This document shows, in pieces, positions 2,041-23,276 of a stretch of DNA of 40,147 nt. The notes beneath the pieces were generated by a model. It did no database searches and was not told the DNA's origin. It worked only from the letters and a program-made list of their open reading frames with translations. Position 1 is the stretch's first letter. Each line of letters opens with the position of its first letter. The position numbers and the translations under genes were made by a program. This stretch comes from a virus. The stretch covers positions 1 to 40,147 of IMG/VR virus record IMGVR_UViG_3300044695_001575; one strand, written 5' to 3'.

Positions 2041-2463
2041 CTATGATATTCCGATTGCAATAAGATTTATTTGCATCGTTACTGAACCAGTTGATCCAGA
2101 TGGAAACTTAATGATACCGTCTACTCTATCTTTTGTTACTGATGTTAAAACTGCAGTAGCAGCATTTCCTCCAGAAACTGTACTGGTAGAGTTTGTAAGT
2201 CCCACAACTGCTATTGGGGTTGAGGTATAGTTTGGATAGGTAAAGAAAAACTTTTCTTCTGGCGAAGTTGTTATGTTATTAATAGTGATAGATTTTGTCT
2301 CTGCATAAAATTTTAAAGAACTACTATTTGCCGCTACCCCATTTACTCTTGATTGGGTAGATGTTATTTGTGAATTTTGTAAATCACTGACAGCCTCAAC
2401 TAAAGATGAAATCAAAGTAACATCTAAAGGTTGACCACGGGTTGGTGAAATTATAGTTGCCAT
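2041..2463 (-). CDS. Probable virion or tail-appendage protein
   Basis: This 140-residue protein is rich in Ser, Thr, Asn and Val. Residues about 10-50 are helical (LISSLVEAVSDLQN), and from about 55 onward the sequence alternates as beta strands (KSITINNITTSPEEKFFFTY... TSTPIAVVGLTN). A short helical stalk followed by a beta domain is common in phage fibre-tip or appendage proteins. It is the last gene of the long tail block. No enzymatic motif was seen and the specific role is unknown. A GGAG ribosome-binding sequence lies just upstream of the ATG. Confidence 0.55.
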   Translation of the reverse strand: MATIISPTRGQPLDVTLISSLVEAVSDLQNSQITSTQSRVNGVAANSSSLKFYAETKSITINNITTSPEEKFFFTYPNYTSTPIAVVGLTNSTSTVSGGNAATAVLTSVTKDRVDGIIKFPSGSTGSVTMQINLIAIGIS

Positions 2464-2481
2464 ATCATCTCCATTATATCA

Positions 2482-4049: not shown

Positions 4050-4744
4050 TAGTCCCTCACTTCTACAATTGTACCATTTGTGTCTATTTCTATCTCAATC
4101 AATTCATCAGAGGTTATGTTATCTAGTTCTATAATAAGGTTTCCATCTACATCTATATAGATATAACTATCTAGACCTCTATCTGCCAAGTATCTATCCC
4201 CAGGTATTTTTGTGTTTAATTTTATAGAAAATGCATTTAATAATGAGGTGTCTGATTTTTGAGAAGATATTATGTCTGATGGGTCAAATTCTTTTTTAAT
4301 AGCACTTAGATTAGAAATAATGTTGTAGTATGGATTAATACCTTCTACCGTATCATTTCTTGTAAACTTAGTTAATTCTACCGCTCCTAATTTTTCAAAT
4401 ACTAAGGCTGTAATAGTAGCCTCATCAATATTGTTATTATTAAGGGCTATAACATTATCTTTATCTGGAATTTTAATAGATGTTGTTGGATTAGAAACAA
4501 TTTCTGTTGATTCTAAAGATACTGTAGTAGCATTTATTTTTACTGCATATTGTGGATGTCCTCCAGAAAGAACAAATGCTGATGGTGCTTCAACCCATGG
4601 ATTAACGGGATTTTTTACTTGACCTAAAGTTTGTGCAACTTGATTTGCTACCTGATTCCAATCAGTTCCAGGAATATTTTGTGGATTGTAACTTACTGGA
4701 GTATTGATAGGTCTATCTATTAAATACTCTTGATATCTTGACAT
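4049..4744 (-). CDS. Tail-tip protein, function unknown
   Basis: This 231-residue protein has an N-terminal segment rich in Pro, Asn and Gln (RYQEYLIDRPINTPVSYNPQ, then DWNQVANQVAQTLGQVKNP). Beta-rich sequence follows, ending in an acidic strand pair near the C-terminus (DVDGNLIIELDNITSDELIE). No catalytic motif, membrane segment or signal peptide is present. It lies between the tail-hub protein and the fibre-like protein, directly abutting both, which supports a virion role. Confidence 0.55.
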   Translation of the reverse strand: MSRYQEYLIDRPINTPVSYNPQNIPGTDWNQVANQVAQTLGQVKNPVNPWVEAPSAFVLSGGHPQYAVKINATTVSLESTEIVSNPTTSIKIPDKDNVIALNNNNIDEATITALVFEKLGAVELTKFTRNDTVEGINPYYNIISNLSAIKKEFDPSDIISSQKSDTSLLNAFSIKLNTKIPGDRYLADRGLDSYIYIDVDGNLIIELDNITSDELIEIEIDTNGTIVEVRD

Positions 4745-7700
4745 TTATACCTCCACAACCTTTATAACACTAGAAGGACCTTGCTCATTTCTAGCATATT
4801 GAATTTCAGATACAATAAATTGTTTTTCAACATCTACATACTTATCATTATTTGGCATAGTATAGTCTATTGTAACAATATCTCCAAGTTGAACATGAGG
4901 TATTCCAAAGACTTCTAACATAATTATTTTTCTTGGATCTATAGTTTTAGAGATTAACCATTCCATTATTTTATTAGCCTGATCTTCACTTTGTATATAT
5001 ATAGAATCTAAACTAAAATCTCTTCTTCCGTACTTAGACCTACTAAGTTTTACATTTTGATATATTTTATCTTGTCTAGATGGAGAAAGTATTGCATTGT
5101 TTACTAAAATTGGATCTGAAAAGTTTGATCTATTTTGAAAATATTTATCAACAGTAAGTGTATTTGAAGTATTTTGAGTAAATGTTATTCCTATAATTTG
5201 TAAATAGTTCCCAGATGTTTCATCAATATTAATTAGTTTATCTGTAGAATTAAATATTAAGAACTCTGCACCATAAGCGTCTGCATAAAATCCAGAAGAT
5301 GTGTATGTCTTTTCATTATTAAAAGTAGGTTTTAATATTGCTCTAAATGCTGGATATGCTTTATCGTATCTAACATTAAAATATGCACACTCTCTAAATA
5401 TAGTTCCAAACTCTTCATAGTACATATTATACTTAGGAGCATTTTGTGCACTAATTCCTGATAGATAGGTTGCTTGAACAAATCCAGATACGGCATACTT
5501 CTTTAAAGCGTCAGATGAATTTATTTCATTTGTACCAAAGGCTTGGCTTACATTTTCAATAATTGTATTCTTACTATCTTGTGAATATTGATCTTTTAAA
5601 GCATATACATTTTCAAACATACATTTGCTACCCCCTCTTACAAAAAGAGCCATTGAGTTATATTTATTTGGAAGGGGCACAATATCATCTACTGTAGCAA
5701 TTTGATCTCCATTAAGGTATAGATAAAATCTTCTTACTGATCCTATTTCTTTATATTCAACTGCTAAATCATATACGGTAGGATTTTCTTCTTGACTAAT
5801 CCTATCTTGTCCAACAAACCTACCCTCATCAACAAGAATTTTAGATAATCCTCCCCATAATTTATGAGGAACTGCTATTTCATTTCCATTTTGTAGTGCA
5901 GTTCTTACTTTATAAAATAAAATATTGTGTAAAGAAGAAGTCTCTTCTCCAGTATCTTTATCTACTAAATTATAATTTTCTAAATTATCTGAACTTAATG
6001 TACATATTTCAAAGTAGTATCCAGTTACTCCATTTGGGTCTAGCATGAATGCAATACCACCAGATCCTCCTGTGAGGGTAGTGTTTTGATCTCCAGTTTC
6101 TGAAGGAACTACATAATACTCAGTTGCATTATTTGCAACTTGAATTCTGTCATTAGATTCTTTTTTACCTATGACTCTCATTCTTGTACCAAAATGTTTA
6201 TAGTCAGAATCTAAAGTTTTTCTTACATGAGATATTTGATTCTTATCAATATTTGATGCTGGTCCAGTAAATACTAAAGCAGATGATTGAACAGTTCCTT
6301 TTGATGTAGTTTTTTGAGTTTTAACTATATCATCTGAAGGAATTGTTTCTCTTAAAAAGTTTGCTATAATTCCATTTCTTGTAGACTGTTTTGCAATATC
6401 TTTTCCAGCCTGCCATAATTTATTAGAGGCAGTTGCTGTTGGTGGAGTTGCAATATTATCTGTTGGGGTAGTTGTAAATAGATAACTTGAATCCATTTTA
6501 AATCCATCCACGTTATCATTATTGGACCAGAAGTCACTTAGTCCAGCGTCATGCTGTGTAATTAATGTTCCAAACTGTGCTCTACCACCTTTATTGATTT
6601 TTCCATTTTTAAAAACTGTAACAAACTCTCCAGAATTATTTAAAATATCTTCATAGTAAGGCTCAGAATAAATTCTAACTAATCCAGTTGGGTACATCTT
6701 CCCATTAAAAGGTAGTTCTCCAAAATATTTTTGATACTCTATTTCGTCAGATATCCAAACGTTTCCTATTAAAGGAACGGTATATTCTACTGCATCATAT
6801 TTAATTATTTCTCCATTAGCATACAAATATCCTTGAAGTTTTGGAAGCCAATAAACATTTTCTCCTATATCAATAATGTTATTAACAATAGAATTATTTT
6901 CTACGTAAGGATGCAAGTTATTAAGAGTGGTGTTTAAAGCAACAGCACCTAAAGTAAAAGACCCTGTTTTTGATTTTTCATTAATGGTCTTGCTATTGGT
7001 TTGTCCTGGAACTTCCCACAAAACAACTGGTTGATATCCATAAGTTCTATCCTCGTCAACGTATATAGCCTGCTGTAGTGATCTAGGTGCCCTTTGAATA
7101 TATCTAGTAGTGTAGTCAATCTTTCCATCATTAATAACCTTTGTTTCACCACTTTTTATTTCAATAATATTTGGTAGGCTAGTACCTTCCTTTTGACCAT
7201 ATAGTGTAATGTCTGTAATTCTATCGTTATCACCTGGTAACAAATACTCTTTTGACATTACAACAAAGTTATTATATTCATCAAAAAACATTGATGACTG
7301 AGTTGCTACGGCAATTCTTTGTAGTACTTCTGCGATGTTTGCATCTGGTTCAATAAATAGATATGGAATTACTTCTTCACTTTTATCTTGAACATTTTTA
7401 AATACATAGTTACTAAATCCTATATTATCTAACAATACTGCAACTGCATATGTTACTGACACATTTTGTAAAAATAATGGAGGGCATGACTGTGTTTCAA
7501 GTCTAAAAAACAAATCTCGAAGGTTTACTGTTATATCCTCTAAAGCACTACCTGCTTTTGGAAAGTCTTCAATATACATGCTTTTTATAGGAACAAACTT
7601 ATCAAACTCATTCACATTTTTTATAACCTCATAAAAATCAACCCTTATATTAGGATTTAATAAATCAGATATAATACTTCCTTGATCATTTTCTAATACA

Positions 7701-19307: not shown

Positions 19308-20291
19308 TTATCCTTGTGCAACTGCGATAGCACTGGTTTCTTCGATTTGAACGCCGAAACGTAAGAATACAGTATATTCTACTGTGTCTTTCTTAGGTTG
19401 GAATTCACGATGAACTGTGACATCTCTTTGGAAACCCCAAATACGATTTTCAGGGAATGTTAGAGATACACGGTTTGCAGGCATCAAAGGAACTTCCAAT
19501 AAAGGAAGACCTAGTACACGGTACTGCAATGGAGCACCGAGGATTTGTGGTTCTTGACCAGCAACAACTCTTTCAACGATTCTTTCGCTGTTCAGGTTAC
19601 CTGAAGAGCCAAGGCCGTTGATAATGTTTGATACTGTTTCTGTGTCTGCATAGAACTTCATTGCTGAACGTGAAGCACGATATTTACGAGGCATTGCAAG
19701 CACAAGTGCTTGTAAGTCTTCGATATCTGTACCGAATGTTGCAGTGTTTGTAGAAGTGTTTTCTTTTGCAACAAAACCTTCCATGATGTTCAAGAATGCA
19801 TTTGAACCAGAACCTACTCCGTTGATTGCGAGATCTTCGAGATCGTTTGCGAAAGCACGAGTCATTGTACGGACCAAGTGGTCTTCCAATCCTGCACCTT
19901 CCAAGTTGTCTTCGATTGCTTCGGTTGATACTTCCCAGTCAAGACGAATCTTCTTTGTAGAGATTTCTACCTTTGTGAAAGTAACACCAGCGTTTGTGTA
20001 AGTTGCATCTGCTTGTGCAGCGGCACGGATTACACGTTCTCCAACGTTAAGTTTTTCAAGTTCTGCAGCGTTTGTACGCATTGTTACTCTGCGTCCATCT
20101 CTTGCTAGTACTTGTTGTTCGAATATGTATTCGATAAATTGGCGTGATTGCTCAGGAGCAAGAATACCGCCATCATTAGCGGAACTTCCTGCAACACCAA
20201 GGTCTCCTGCGGCTGGGGTGCTTACACCTCCAATACCACCAGAAACGATAGATCCTGTAGCAGCAGCCTTTTCTAAAATTTCTTCTGCCAT
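19308..20291 (-). CDS. Major capsid protein, HK97 fold
   Basis: This 327-residue protein follows the protease-scaffold gene. A Gly/Ala/Ser-rich N-terminal arm (about 1-45) precedes ILAPEQSRQFIEYIFEQQ. The body has AFANDLEDLAINGVG, a typical HK97-like spine-helix pattern, then ALVLAMPRKYRASRSAMKFY, GLPLLEVPLMP and VSLTFPENRIWGFQRDVTV. These match the P-domain and A-domain order of phage capsid proteins. The ribosome-binding site GGGAGGTG lies upstream. Codons are richer in G and C than in neighbouring genes. The capsid protein forms the icosahedral head shell. Confidence 0.9.
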   Translation of the reverse strand: MAEEILEKAAATGSIVSGGIGGVSTPAAGDLGVAGSSANDGGILAPEQSRQFIEYIFEQQVLARDGRRVTMRTNAAELEKLNVGERVIRAAAQADATYTNAGVTFTKVEISTKKIRLDWEVSTEAIEDNLEGAGLEDHLVRTMTRAFANDLEDLAINGVGSGSNAFLNIMEGFVAKENTSTNTATFGTDIEDLQALVLAMPRKYRASRSAMKFYADTETVSNIINGLGSSGNLNSERIVERVVAGQEPQILGAPLQYRVLGLPLLEVPLMPANRVSLTFPENRIWGFQRDVTVHREFQPKKDTVEYTVFLRFGVQIEETSAIAVAQG

Positions 20292-20315: not shown

Positions 20316-20903
20316 TTAACGATATAGGTCAGCGGAATTGAGGAAACGCCCGCCCCACATCGATTTTCTTGTTATTTGTGTTTCCTGAACGACCCCGCCT
20401 AGGTCGCCAGACTTACGGACAGCAGTGTCGTCTTCTAATTCATCGACACGCTTTCCAAACTCGTCTACATTGCCCTTAATTCCTTTAATTTCCTCTTGTG
20501 CGGAAGCAATGCTCTTTTGTAGTTCTGCCATTTTGTCATTTAGTGACTTTACGGTTGCCACCAAGTCTCCAAGTGCTGAAGCAACTGTATTTTGAACCTC
20601 ATCAATAGATTCTTGTACTGTATCAACAGCCTTTGCTAAATCAGCAGGTGCTTCTTCAGCAGGAGTGGCGGCATCTTGTGCTGGGGCTTCTGTTTCTTCA
20701 GCAGGTGCTGCTTCTTCAGCAGGTGCTGCTTCTTCAGCAGGTGCTGCTTCAGCAGGTACTGCTTCTTCAGCAGGTGCTACTTCAACAGGTGCTGTTTCTT
20801 CAGCAGATACTGTTTCTACAACAGTGGCTGCTTCTTCAGTTCCCTCAGACTTTACAATGTTTTCTTCAGCAACAATTGCTGGTTCTACATTTTCTTTTGC
20901 CAT
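20316..20903 (-). CDS. Nested capsid scaffold protein from an internal in-frame start
   Basis: Within the protease-scaffold frame the ATG at 20901-20903 (Met262) is preceded at 7 bases by AAGGAGGGG, one of the strongest ribosome-binding sites in the window. The product would be 195 residues: MAKENVEP, then Ala/Pro/Glu repeats, then a coiled coil and a short basic end. This mirrors lambda, where scaffold Nu3 is translated from inside protease gene C. Producing more scaffold than protease is the known reason for such nesting. The start site is seen in sequence; its use is inferred. Confidence 0.65.
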   Translation of the reverse strand: MAKENVEPAIVAEENIVKSEGTEEAATVVETVSAEETAPVEVAPAEEAVPAEAAPAEEAAPAEEAAPAEETEAPAQDAATPAEEAPADLAKAVDTVQESIDEVQNTVASALGDLVATVKSLNDKMAELQKSIASAQEEIKGIKGNVDEFGKRVDELEDDTAVRKSGDLGGVVQETQITRKSMWGGRFLNSADLYR

Positions 20904-21686
20904 TATATTCCCCTCCTTATCAGGATTTTCAGCCTTGGTTACTTTATCACCAAGTCTATTTTTCTGTGATTCAATTAATCCTTTTACCACAGAATTCTTT
21001 TCGGTATCATTAGATTCAACAAAGCCTATATTTATCATGCCTTTATCGCATGATGGGCAACATGAATCTTCGTCTTGAGAAAGTCTAACGATGGAATCAG
21101 ATTCGCACCAATAAACATTTTCAAGATCTACCTTACTAATAATACCATCAAATTTATTTTGTCCATCAGCCATTTTTTCAATTGAAATAATATTTGCAAA
21201 TTGATTGGCTGGATTGTCTACTAACGAAAGTTCGTGGAGTTCATAGTCTTTAATAACACGAATTGACTTATCCATCTCGGCATTGTATACCTGGTCAGAT
21301 TCTTTAATACTACCACCAATAGAAAAGCCAGAAAGAGTGCCATCAAGGACCTTTTCCCAAGTATCTTGAGCACCTTTAGAAATATATGCATTTACAAAAA
21401 CTCCATTATAAAATTTGTCTTCTTCTTGATTATAAAACTTGTCTGATTTAAATGACATTACCCTGCCGACTGCAATAGGCATGTGCATTTCACGAAGGTT
21501 TCCTCTGAATCTCTCAAAGGCTTTTACACTTACATCTGTTGGAACAATGTCTGACTGCTTGTCAATATTGTCCAATGTAGCAAACCCAGAAACGGTACGT
21601 TTCTCTTTGTCGATTTTTGCAATTGGCATCGATAACTTAATGTTATTTTCTTCTGAGTGCCAAAATGCTTTGGATAAATTAGTCAT
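20316..21686 (-). CDS. Prohead protease fused to capsid scaffold
   Basis: The protein has 456 residues. Residues 15-170 are an HK97-type (U35-like) prohead protease: strand VSGFATLDNIDKQSDIV, MHMPIAVG with probable catalytic His68, LSGFSIGG with probable Ser122, and ELHELSLVDNPAN with probable acidic residue Glu152. Residues 190-215 carry four Cys (194, 209, 210, 213). Residues about 270-350 are Ala/Pro/Glu-rich repeats. Residues about 355-440 are a coiled coil (DTVQESIDEVQNTVAS... LQKSIASAQEEIKG), as expected of a scaffold. The enzyme should cleave scaffold and capsid arms during maturation. An internal in-frame start (Met262) with a strong ribosome-binding site may make the scaffold alone. 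Confidence 0.85.
   Translation of the reverse strand: MTNLSKAFWHSEENNIKLSMPIAKIDKEKRTVSGFATLDNIDKQSDIVPTDVSVKAFERFRGNLREMHMPIAVGRVMSFKSDKFYNQEEDKFYNGVFVNAYISKGAQDTWEKVLDGTLSGFSIGGSIKESDQVYNAEMDKSIRVIKDYELHELSLVDNPANQFANIISIEKMADGQNKFDGIISKVDLENVYWCESDSIVRLSQDEDSCCPSCDKGMINIGFVESNDTEKNSVVKGLIESQKNRLGDKVTKAENPDKEGNIMAKENVEPAIVAEENIVKSEGTEEAATVVETVSAEETAPVEVAPAEEAVPAEAAPAEEAAPAEEAAPAEETEAPAQDAATPAEEAPADLAKAVDTVQESIDEVQNTVASALGDLVATVKSLNDKMAELQKSIASAQEEIKGIKGNVDEFGKRVDELEDDTAVRKSGDLGGVVQETQITRKSMWGGRFLNSADLYR
20692..20812 (-). repeat. In-frame repeats coding for Ala/Pro/Glu tract of the scaffold
   Basis: An imperfect unit of about 15 to 18 bases built on TTCTTCAGCAGGTGCTGC (plus strand) repeats roughly six times. 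On the minus strand it encodes EEAAPAEEAAPAEE and related variants. The tract is probably a flexible acidic linker between protease and coiled coil. Its copy number is likely to vary among relatives. Confidence 0.75.
20911..20918 (-). promoter_or_regulatory. Ribosome-binding site for internal scaffold start
   Basis: The minus strand reads AAGGAGGG ending 7 bases before the in-frame ATG at 20901-20903. In the protein this stretch codes for DKEG, so the purine-rich run sits inside coding sequence, yet it matches the anti-Shine-Dalgarno core fully. Confidence 0.65.
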
Positions 21687-21708
21687 GCTACCTCTATTAT
21701 AATAAGTG

Positions 21709-21737
21709 TTTATAGGTACTTTATAATATTATAACAA
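21709..21737 (-). promoter_or_regulatory. Sigma70-like promoter upstream of the protease-scaffold gene
   Basis: The minus strand has TTGTTA at 21732-21737 and TATAAA at 21709-21714 with a 17-base spacer. It occupies the 52-base gap between the portal stop and the protease ATG. The gap is very AT-rich, so chance matches are possible, but the spacing is ideal. Confidence 0.45.
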
Positions 21738-21738
21738 A

Positions 21739-22851
21739 TTATTGTTGAGATCGACCTTCACCCTGTGGATTTCTCCCAGTAGTGGTTGAGGCTGAGTCAG
21801 ACGCATTGTTAGTTCTCTCTTGGTCCCTATTTCTATTTCCAGTTGATTGTGCTACCTGTTCAGCCCTTGCTTGTGCCCCTAATACTATAGGTTCAGATCC
21901 GCCTGGTCTTACTGGGTAGTTCAATCTTTCACGAACTTCATTTGGGACAAGAACCTGCATACGCAAGTATCTCTCATCTATTTGACTTTGAGTTTGCTCA
22001 TCTGTCAATGTTAGTTCGTTAAATTTAAGGGAAAGCATATCTGTCTTTTCTTTAACAATCTTGTTAATAGTTTTTTCCAGATTTCTTTGTGCTGGTCTTG
22101 CAACCTGCTCCTTAAATGTTCTATCTGCCACCAATGCTGATGCGATAGAAATTCCTGCACCACCGCCAACCTTTGAATATGGAACTTGATGAGCCATCAA
22201 GATATCATCACGGTTTGCTTTTCGATATCTATCAAATGATCCATCTTGAATACCATTCTCAATAGGTTCTAATTTAAAATCTACTTTATTATCTGGTCCA
22301 TCTCCAGGAAGAGGGATGTAAAGAGTTCTATGATTTTGACCTTTTAAGCCTGCTTGCATAAATCTAAAGAATTTATCCTCTGCATCTGAACTGAGTTTGG
22401 CACCTTTAACTATTGCAATGTATCTAGGAACTGCCTTATTTTCAAAATAGTCAACATTATACTTGGCTGCAAGTTCATTTCCAACCATAGATGTTGCTGA
22501 TGCCACTGTATCTGGAACTCCATAATAAGAGTTCTTTGGGGAATACTTTTTGATATGGATTAGTTCGTTTGGTCTATTATCGCTTGTAACAGGGTTAATA
22601 TTTTTTTGTTCTTGGAAGTTTCTAAAATATACTACCTTTTGATTTACTATTTGAATATACCCGTCACGCATACGGCGTACACGAATTGTGGTTGCTGGGA
22701 TATGACCAATATAACCAATATCTCCATTAATCTTTCTACCTATTTCAATATATCCATTTCCTACTGTTTCAACATCTGTGTATACCTTTTCTAATACGTG
22801 AGTAAAAGTATCTTCATCATTTAAACTTCTGACTTTGCTCTTTGTATTTTT
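21739..22851 (-). CDS. Portal protein, C-terminal part (frame -1 relative to N-terminal part)
   Basis: This frame is open from 22875 to the stop at 21739, but the first ATG (22671) lies well inside the conserved portal sequence. Read from the junction it gives SLNDEDTFTHVLEKVYTDVE, then TVGNGYIEIGRKINGDIG and GHIPATTIRVRR, the conserved core of siphovirus portals. Later sequence includes SPKNSYYGVPDTVASATSMV and the C-terminal Gln/Asn-rich tail. The two parts together would be about 512 residues, a normal portal length. The portal ring is the DNA entry and exit channel at one head vertex. See the N-terminal entry for the frame change. Confidence 0.85.
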   Translation of the reverse strand, partial: KNTKSKVRSLNDEDTFTHVLEKVYTDVETVGNGYIEIGRKINGDIGYIGHIPATTIRVRRMRDGYIQIVNQKVVYFRNFQEQKNINPVTSDNRPNELIHIKKYSPKNSYYGVPDTVASATSMVGNELAAKYNVDYFENKAVPRYIAIVKGAKLSSDAEDKFFRFMQAGLKGQNHRTLYIPLPGDGPDNKVDFKLEPIENGIQDGSFDRYRKANRDDILMAHQVPYSKVGGGAGISIASALVADRTFKEQVARPAQRNLEKTINKIVKEKTDMLSLKFNELTLTDEQTQSQIDERYLRMQVLVPNEVRERLNYPVRPGGSEPIVLGAQARAEQVAQSTGNRNRDQERTNNASDSASTTTGRNPQGEGRSQQ

Positions 22852-23276
22852 CTTTGTGCTCTCATTAAAGAAGTGTCATCTGGTGCCTCTTCTAATTTAG
22901 CAACTGTAGAATCTGTCATATTAAATGAATATCCAAGGCCTACGATGTTAGCAACCTTTGCTTGAATAGCAGCATGGTTAGCAAATGAGTTTTCATAAAA
23001 ATAAGCCAACTCGTCCAAGTTGTATGGTGGCAATACGACATCAAAAAGTCCGTAGGCCGTAACCATATCCATTTCTGGGAATAGTTGTTTTGATCTAGTA
23101 TCATCAACACCCATAAATGCTTTATTTACTGTTCTAGAAATTTTACGTTTAAAGTTTTGATGTATGCCATCATAAGACTTAATAAGTTCTCCATCAATAT
23201 TAAATGGGTCTACCTTTTCTTTTTTTTCTACTTTATCAAGATTATCAATCTTGGCTATTGATCCGTTATCTTCCAT
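22821..23276 (-). CDS. Portal protein, N-terminal part, ends at a frame change
   Basis: The 151-residue frame includes FGLFDVVLPPYN-like portal sequence (AYGLFDVVLPPYNLDELAYF), then AAIQAKVANIVGLGYSF, typical of the portal N-terminus. It stops at TAA 22821-22823 after SLMRAQRKIQRAKSEV. Portal homology continues without a gap in the -1 frame. The frames can be joined at the A5 run 22847-22851 (minus strand GAAAAAT): one extra A would give QRKNTKSKVRSLNDED. Explanations are a one-base assembly or sequencing error, a natural mutation, or a -1 slip at A AAA A. The start overlaps the preceding gene by 11 bases. Confidence 0.8.
   Translation of the reverse strand: MEDNGSIAKIDNLDKVEKKEKVDPFNIDGELIKSYDGIHQNFKRKISRTVNKAFMGVDDTRSKQLFPEMDMVTAYGLFDVVLPPYNLDELAYFYENSFANHAAIQAKVANIVGLGYSFNMTDSTVAKLEEAPDDTSLMRAQRKIQRAKSEV

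Follow-up and report, generated by a model that had tools for sequence, protein, structure and literature searches.

A conserved internal start predicts a scaffold protein nested in the capsid protease gene of phages related to Streptomyces and Rhodococcus phages

Introduction

Where is the scaffold protein encoded when a single gene fills the interval between portal and capsid? The question is raised by the window analyzed here, which is an IMG/VR virus record taken as one stretch of 40,147 bases. Its gene order is portal gene, protease open reading frame (ORF), 24 nt and capsid gene, and no gene other than that ORF was found in the portal-to-capsid interval of the window (Table 1). The capsid protein matches the TIGR01554 profile only from position 104 onward, and the missing stretch lies, by length, where the delta domain of HK97 would be. 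According to the accessible part of the source, the HK97 delta domain consists of 102 residues, is part of the capsid protein and serves as the scaffold (PMC8508860). Therefore, a separate scaffold is expected in the present phage, which is probably a tailed phage of actinobacteria, the host being judged from relatives that are phages of Streptomyces and Rhodococcus.

A sequence-only reading of this DNA had placed the scaffold inside the protease gene and had proposed that an in-frame ATG (Met262) with a near-perfect Shine-Dalgarno (SD) sequence separates the protease from an Ala/Pro/Glu-rich (A/P/E) and coiled-coil scaffold, exactly as Nu3 lies within lambda C. In this study, we compare the gene with its relatives and arrive at a reading to which we assign a probability of about 0.88: one gene would supply a sparingly made and probably near-leaderless protease-scaffold protein together with a bulk of SD-led scaffold, the two would copolymerize, and their tail would hold the capsid protein.

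Materials and Methods

The genes were drawn from 121 relatives on viral contigs, 17 GenBank phages (15 annotated and two without annotation) and the window, which together gave 124 full-length genes. The 53 representatives are full-length genes below 90% nucleotide identity, and Streptomyces and Rhodococcus phages are among them. Pairing energies were calculated against an assumed anti-SD tail, which may not match the 16S rRNA of the host. Because the linker is of low complexity, the protein alignment misplaces codon 262; therefore, the start codon served as the reference point of the codon tests. Spacings between the SD and the start codon were counted from the end of the five-base core.

Table 1. 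Features of the protease-scaffold locus in the window.
Feature	Position	Strand	Basis
Protease-scaffold fusion ORF, 456-aa full-length product	20316..21686	-	PHROG 9427 and Pfam Peptidase_S78
Protease domain, residues ~8-160	21207..21665	-	AlphaFold2 model, structural matches, invariant columns
Predicted nested scaffold reading frame, 195 aa (residues 262-456)	20316..20903	-	Model, composition shift at start
A/P/E-rich stretch, residues 263-347, predicted disordered	20646..20900	-	pLDDT <50 over scaffold-model residues 1-83
Single 78-residue helix, coiled-coil candidate, residues 348-425	20412..20645	-	Scaffold-model helix 87-164, block pLDDT up to 96
Conserved C-terminal tail RKSGDLGG...WGGRFL..ADLYR	20319..20411	-	Invariant K425, S426, D428, G446, F448 (52 members)
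Internal Shine-Dalgarno AAGGAGGGG	20910..20918	-	SD kept in 124/124 full-length genes
Internal start codon ATG, Met262 of the long form	20901..20903	-	GTG in 12/53 representatives
Predicted -10 box TATAAT, ends 9 nt before protease ATG	21696..21701	-	Conserved position
Major capsid protein, 327 aa, without HK97-type N-terminal delta stretch	19308..20291	-	PF05065; own SD GGGAGGTG

Results

A protease joined to a scaffold-like half

PHROG 9427, "head maturation protease", was matched over residues 3-453 of the ORF in a PHROG profile search (E 4e-131), and Peptidase_S78 of Pfam was matched over residues 106-172 at 30.6 bits (cut-off 21). The HK97 equivalog of NCBIfam, TIGR01543, scored 26.4 on the ORF, which is under its cut-off of 59. 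Four residues of the protease domain, H68, S122, E152 and D157, are invariant among 52 aligned members, and we take H68 and S122 to be the catalytic His and Ser. The AlphaFold2 model shows a beta-rich protease domain, and its best match among solved structures is T4 gp21 (5jbl_C, Z 12.5, rmsd 3.1, 132 aligned). The herpes assemblins follow at Z 5-6.6; a Z below 8 counts for little alone, and the run of herpes proteases fits an assemblin fold. When the whole model was searched with Foldseek, no match to the PDB was returned at E<=0.001, and a search of a viral library found 80 at the same cut-off, including many prohead proteases. As modeled, the protease is S78-like and has the fold of T4 gp21 and the herpes assemblins. 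Three cysteines that follow the domain, C194, C210 and C213 (residues 194-213, ~21048-21107), are conserved in the close clade, where they may form a metal site, and are not among the invariant columns of the 52 members.

Two observations concern the upstream neighborhood. In the Streptomyces relatives, an extra gene, annotated as a membrane protein in several of them, lies between portal and protease and is absent from the window (21687-21738). Moreover, the portal gene is frameshifted in the window record (21739-22671 and 22821-23276, minus strand) and forms one intact ORF of ~520 residues in other contigs, including L002, whose protease is identical to that of the window.

The composition of the protein changes at the internal methionine, with A/P/E content rising from 18% in the 40 residues before the start to 51% in the 80 residues after it, and a rise is found in 53/53 representatives. 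In profile comparisons, the long helix matched solved coiled coils weakly. The search for homology to scaffold families returned PHROG 9427 itself and coiled-coil noise when 36 scaffold members were scanned against PHROG, and the Pfam and NCBIfam matches to this half were coiled-coil noise below the cut-offs. The scaffold half is assigned by its position, its helix and its tail, without a scaffold-family match, and the tail may be the capsid-binding end. The division of the protein at Met262 into a protease and an A/P/E-rich and helical half, as originally proposed, agrees with the fold, the composition and the helix model, and the peptide that follows the methionine is AKENVEP, as had been read.

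The start of the long form

The protease has a start that is almost without an SD. The mean pairing energy with the assumed anti-SD tail is -2.9 kcal/mol at the protease start (range -6.8 to +2.0), compared with -12.8 at the internal start and -13.4 at the capsid start (47/53 representatives). In the window clade, a weak GAGGT (-6.7) precedes the protease ATG. Upstream of the ATG, TATAAT ends at a distance of 9-10 nt in 105/124 genes. In the 42 non-Streptomyces representatives, the -10 hexamer ends 9 nt before the ATG in 29 and 10 nt before it in 10, and the others are L122 and L137, at 6 nt, and the Rhodococcus phage Dorin (L071), with TATACT at 9. A pyrimidine-purine step occupies positions -4/-3 in 39 of the 40 representatives with TATAnT, as expected of an initiation site, and the transcript of the window is predicted to start at ~21689 (purine at -3). 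In 11/11 Streptomyces representatives, the distance from the end of TANNNT to the conserved start is exactly 6 nt, and none of the other spacings between 0 and 24 has the motif; for three of the 11, the conserved start was taken as the second in-frame ATG in place of the annotated one. The promoter pattern had 22 matches in the records of 12 relatives (12 in the reversed control), and the -10 element does not appear to be a phage-wide signal because the protease site accounts for about 10 of the 22.

Because the -10 box stands at a fixed distance and the ATG has almost no SD, a near-leaderless protease message is predicted. According to the accessible part of an earlier survey, a TANNNT whose first T lies about 12 nt upstream of the start codon is taken as the mark of a leaderless gene and applies to ~20% of Actinobacteria genes (PMC3160421). 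This distance equals 12 nt in every one of the 11 Streptomyces representatives and 15-16 nt in 39/42 of the others, which is 3-4 nt beyond that criterion; in the window, it is 15 nt, and the weak GAGGT is also present. A near-leaderless message for the protease is therefore probable.

A different account accepts the nested scaffold and attributes protease translation to ordinary read-through from, or coupling with, the operon upstream, with the -10 box being no promoter. We consider this account possible, although rather doubtful. No clear -35 box was found upstream of the protease start, and some Streptomyces relatives have an ATGA-type overlap with the upstream gene; in L066, L068 and L074, the end of that gene and the protease ATG share bases, and therefore coupling could replace leaderless initiation there. 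However, the account leaves the fixed position of the -10 box, the pyrimidine-purine step and the near absence of an SD at the protease start without a role.

Two further elements were recorded. The one other near-leaderless -10 arrangement of the window, TATAATGGAGATGATATG, is at 2461-2478 (minus strand), before the gene at 2041-2463. In addition, CTCAATAATTGAG, as a palindrome or a near copy, occurs ~30-45 nt upstream of the protease start, and upstream of the promoter, in L094, L097, L099, L128, L131 and others.

The internal start

The internal ATG is preceded by a near-perfect SD, AAGGAGGGG, as the sequence-only reading had it; the spacing of seven that it gave is corrected to 6 nt after AAGGAGGGG (8 nt after the AAGGAGG core). 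The arrangement AAGGAGG-N5-9-ATG occurs three times in the window, and 0.41 occurrences are expected from shuffles. Pairing at this start amounts to -11.6 kcal/mol in the window and to between -8.9 and -16.0 in 53/53 representatives, which are related and hence not independent samples of conservation. Elsewhere inside these 53 genes lie 567 more in-frame start codons, with a mean of -2.5, and just two of them reach -9, a comparison in which choosing the internal start of each gene as its best-SD start codon favors strong pairing. The best-pairing start codon inside the gene falls at the junction between the protease and the A/P/E stretch in 53/53 representatives, and the position of the junction is the same in all relatives, even those with an upstream insertion.

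An SD and start at -8.9 or stronger are present in 124/124 full-length genes, and the relatives that keep the SD with ATG or GTG reach down to ~32% protein identity. Among 15 partial copies, seven cover the site and have it (L050, L054, L056, L061, L111, L116 and L117), seven stop short of it, and one (L057) lacks it. The fusion frame is broken in two contigs: in L054, the break is within the scaffold, and in L057, it spans the linker and the internal start is lost; an assembly error is possible in both. Six relatives (L101, L102, L113, L115, L116 and L119) have ~75-120 extra residues between the protease and the internal start, with the SD and start intact. A further candidate start inside the gene, at the C-terminal MWGGRFL (AAAAGGATCGATG), occurs in some clades only and is absent from the window, and we attribute it to chance.

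At first sight, the SD-like sequence might be a by-product of a Lys-Glu-Gly peptide; only the full-length protein would then be translated, and self-cleavage of the linker would free the scaffold. The peptides KEG and KEV do give an SD easily, and synonymous shuffles with the peptide fixed reach the observed energy in 1727/26500 trials (6.5%). Therefore, a single gene is weak evidence for an internal start, and the strength of the case lies in conservation. A cut between protease and scaffold also has a precedent in the herpesvirus UL26 protein, according to the accessible part of the source (PMC12474303). However, the peptide at the site differs among clades (KEG, KEV, KEA, EGG and GGA), whereas the SD and the start codon persist. 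The SD core occupies two codon frames and lies at spacings of 6 (one representative), 8 (six), 9 (37) and 11 (nine), which indicates that the DNA, and not one peptide, has been kept. Codon usage points in the same direction, although anchoring on the best-SD start makes these tests partly circular: GAG encodes 37/37 of the glutamates at -4 (gene-wide, 859/2709), AAG encodes 35/36 of the lysines at -5 (gene-wide, 1226/2059), and where the start codon, ATG in 41 representatives, encodes valine, it is GTG in 12/12, compared with 29/419 among the other Val codons of the same 12 genes. Translation of the long form alone would also fix protease and scaffold at 1:1 before cleavage. We regard this explanation as improbable. 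The region of the internal start is less paired (0.60 vs. 0.43, sd 0.10) in 27/53 representatives.

It is still less credible that the site is an unused relic of the fusion of two formerly separate genes. Out-of-frame stops such as TGATAA do stand directly before the SD in the window clade. However, a relic would decay, and this site is present in every full-length gene, although nucleotide identity falls to ~55% even within the Lys-Glu group and the start codon switches between ATG and GTG. By this pattern of conservation, the internal start is under selection, and we conclude from the comparison that a 195-aa scaffold is probably made by internal initiation.

Discussion

In the reading favored here, the gene would yield two 3′-coterminal proteins in the same frame. 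The 456-aa product would be a maturation protease tethered to a scaffold, and its synthesis would be low because its own start is nearly without a ribosome-binding site; its message would probably be near-leaderless, with the -10 box of its promoter placed 9-10 nt upstream of the ATG (6 nt in the Streptomyces relatives). The free scaffold, consisting of residues 262-456, would be made in bulk from the strong internal SD. If the full-length protein and the free scaffold copolymerize by means of the helix common to both, and if the capsid protein is held by the conserved tail, a few proteases would be carried into the prohead.

The leaderless part of this scheme is less sure than the nested scaffold. 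That the actinobacteriophage family sets the ratio of protease to scaffold by a leaderless protease start and a strong SD-led scaffold start in one frame is a tentative proposal, for and against which we find the arguments nearly balanced. If it is true, the leaderless protease start would fire only from a promoter that abuts its ATG. Messages that read through from upstream would then give scaffold and little protease, and the protease would therefore be switched by its own promoter. The gene offers a clean test of leaderless versus SD-led initiation in the setting of protein ratios within one actinobacteriophage gene.

The finding also bears on annotation. The scaffold gene is unannotated in the records examined of a well-sampled phage group, in which 127 Streptomyces phage records match: none of the records of 15 annotated relatives (12 Streptomyces and three Rhodococcus) lists a nested scaffold, and the protease is entered as one protein. 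The annotation would be corrected, since the one listed protein is probably two. In the literature, we found no account of a leaderless capsid protease or, for this phage family, of a nested scaffold, an absence that weighs little because subscription journals were thinly covered. The nested layout is already known from lambda and Mu. As far as our searches show, its combination with an assemblin-type fold in phages, and with the division between leaderless and SD-led starts, is undescribed.

With its single frame and an internal start that has its own SD, the locus would belong to the class of nested in-frame protease and scaffold genes of the lambda C/Nu3 and Mu I/Z kind. Close annotated counterparts are the "capsid maturation proteases" of the Stanwilliamsviridae, which are full-length relatives with 39-44% identity and the same gene order of portal, (membrane protein), protease and capsid. 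The proposed identity with lambda was only partly correct. The layout holds, as lambda also has an in-frame scaffold nested in the protease gene in the portal-capsid interval (annotated at 4418-5737 and 5132-5737). However, lambda C carries an S49 peptidase annotation, whereas the best families of the window protease are S78 and PHROG 9427, outside S49. Moreover, the order of SD strengths is reversed: in lambda, the C start has a strong SD (-12.0) and nu3 a weak one (-6.9). Lambda also differs from the window in having the decoration gene D before the capsid gene.

In Mu, the nested protease and scaffold genes are named I and Z. According to the accessible part of the source, an in-frame scaffold start with an SD inside the protease gene has been described for Mu and predicted for PaMx73, where it is Val177 with the SD ACGAGGA, and that part makes no mention of a leaderless protease in either phage (PMC4378225). 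The likeness to T4 gp21 lies in the protease fold. The scaffold of T4, gp22, is encoded by a separate gene. HK97 gp4 resembles the window protease in its S78/HK97 family domain match, and, in contrast to the nested scaffold predicted here, that of HK97 forms part of the capsid protein as its delta domain (accessible part of PMC8508860).

The herpesvirus pair UL26/UL26.5 joins an assemblin-type protease fold, the likeness being one of structure, to a scaffold. The short form of the herpesviruses has its own gene, UL26.5, which starts inside UL26 and has its own promoter, whereas the short form in the window would arise by internal translation from an SD. For the two scaffolds, the parallel is one of layout. 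In the accessible part of the source, the shorter, 3′-coterminal herpesvirus protein is identical to the C-terminal part of the longer one (PMC12474303). A layout like that of UL26/UL26.5 is thus joined in these phages with the same protease fold, and UL26/UL26.5 is a closer parallel than lambda C/Nu3.
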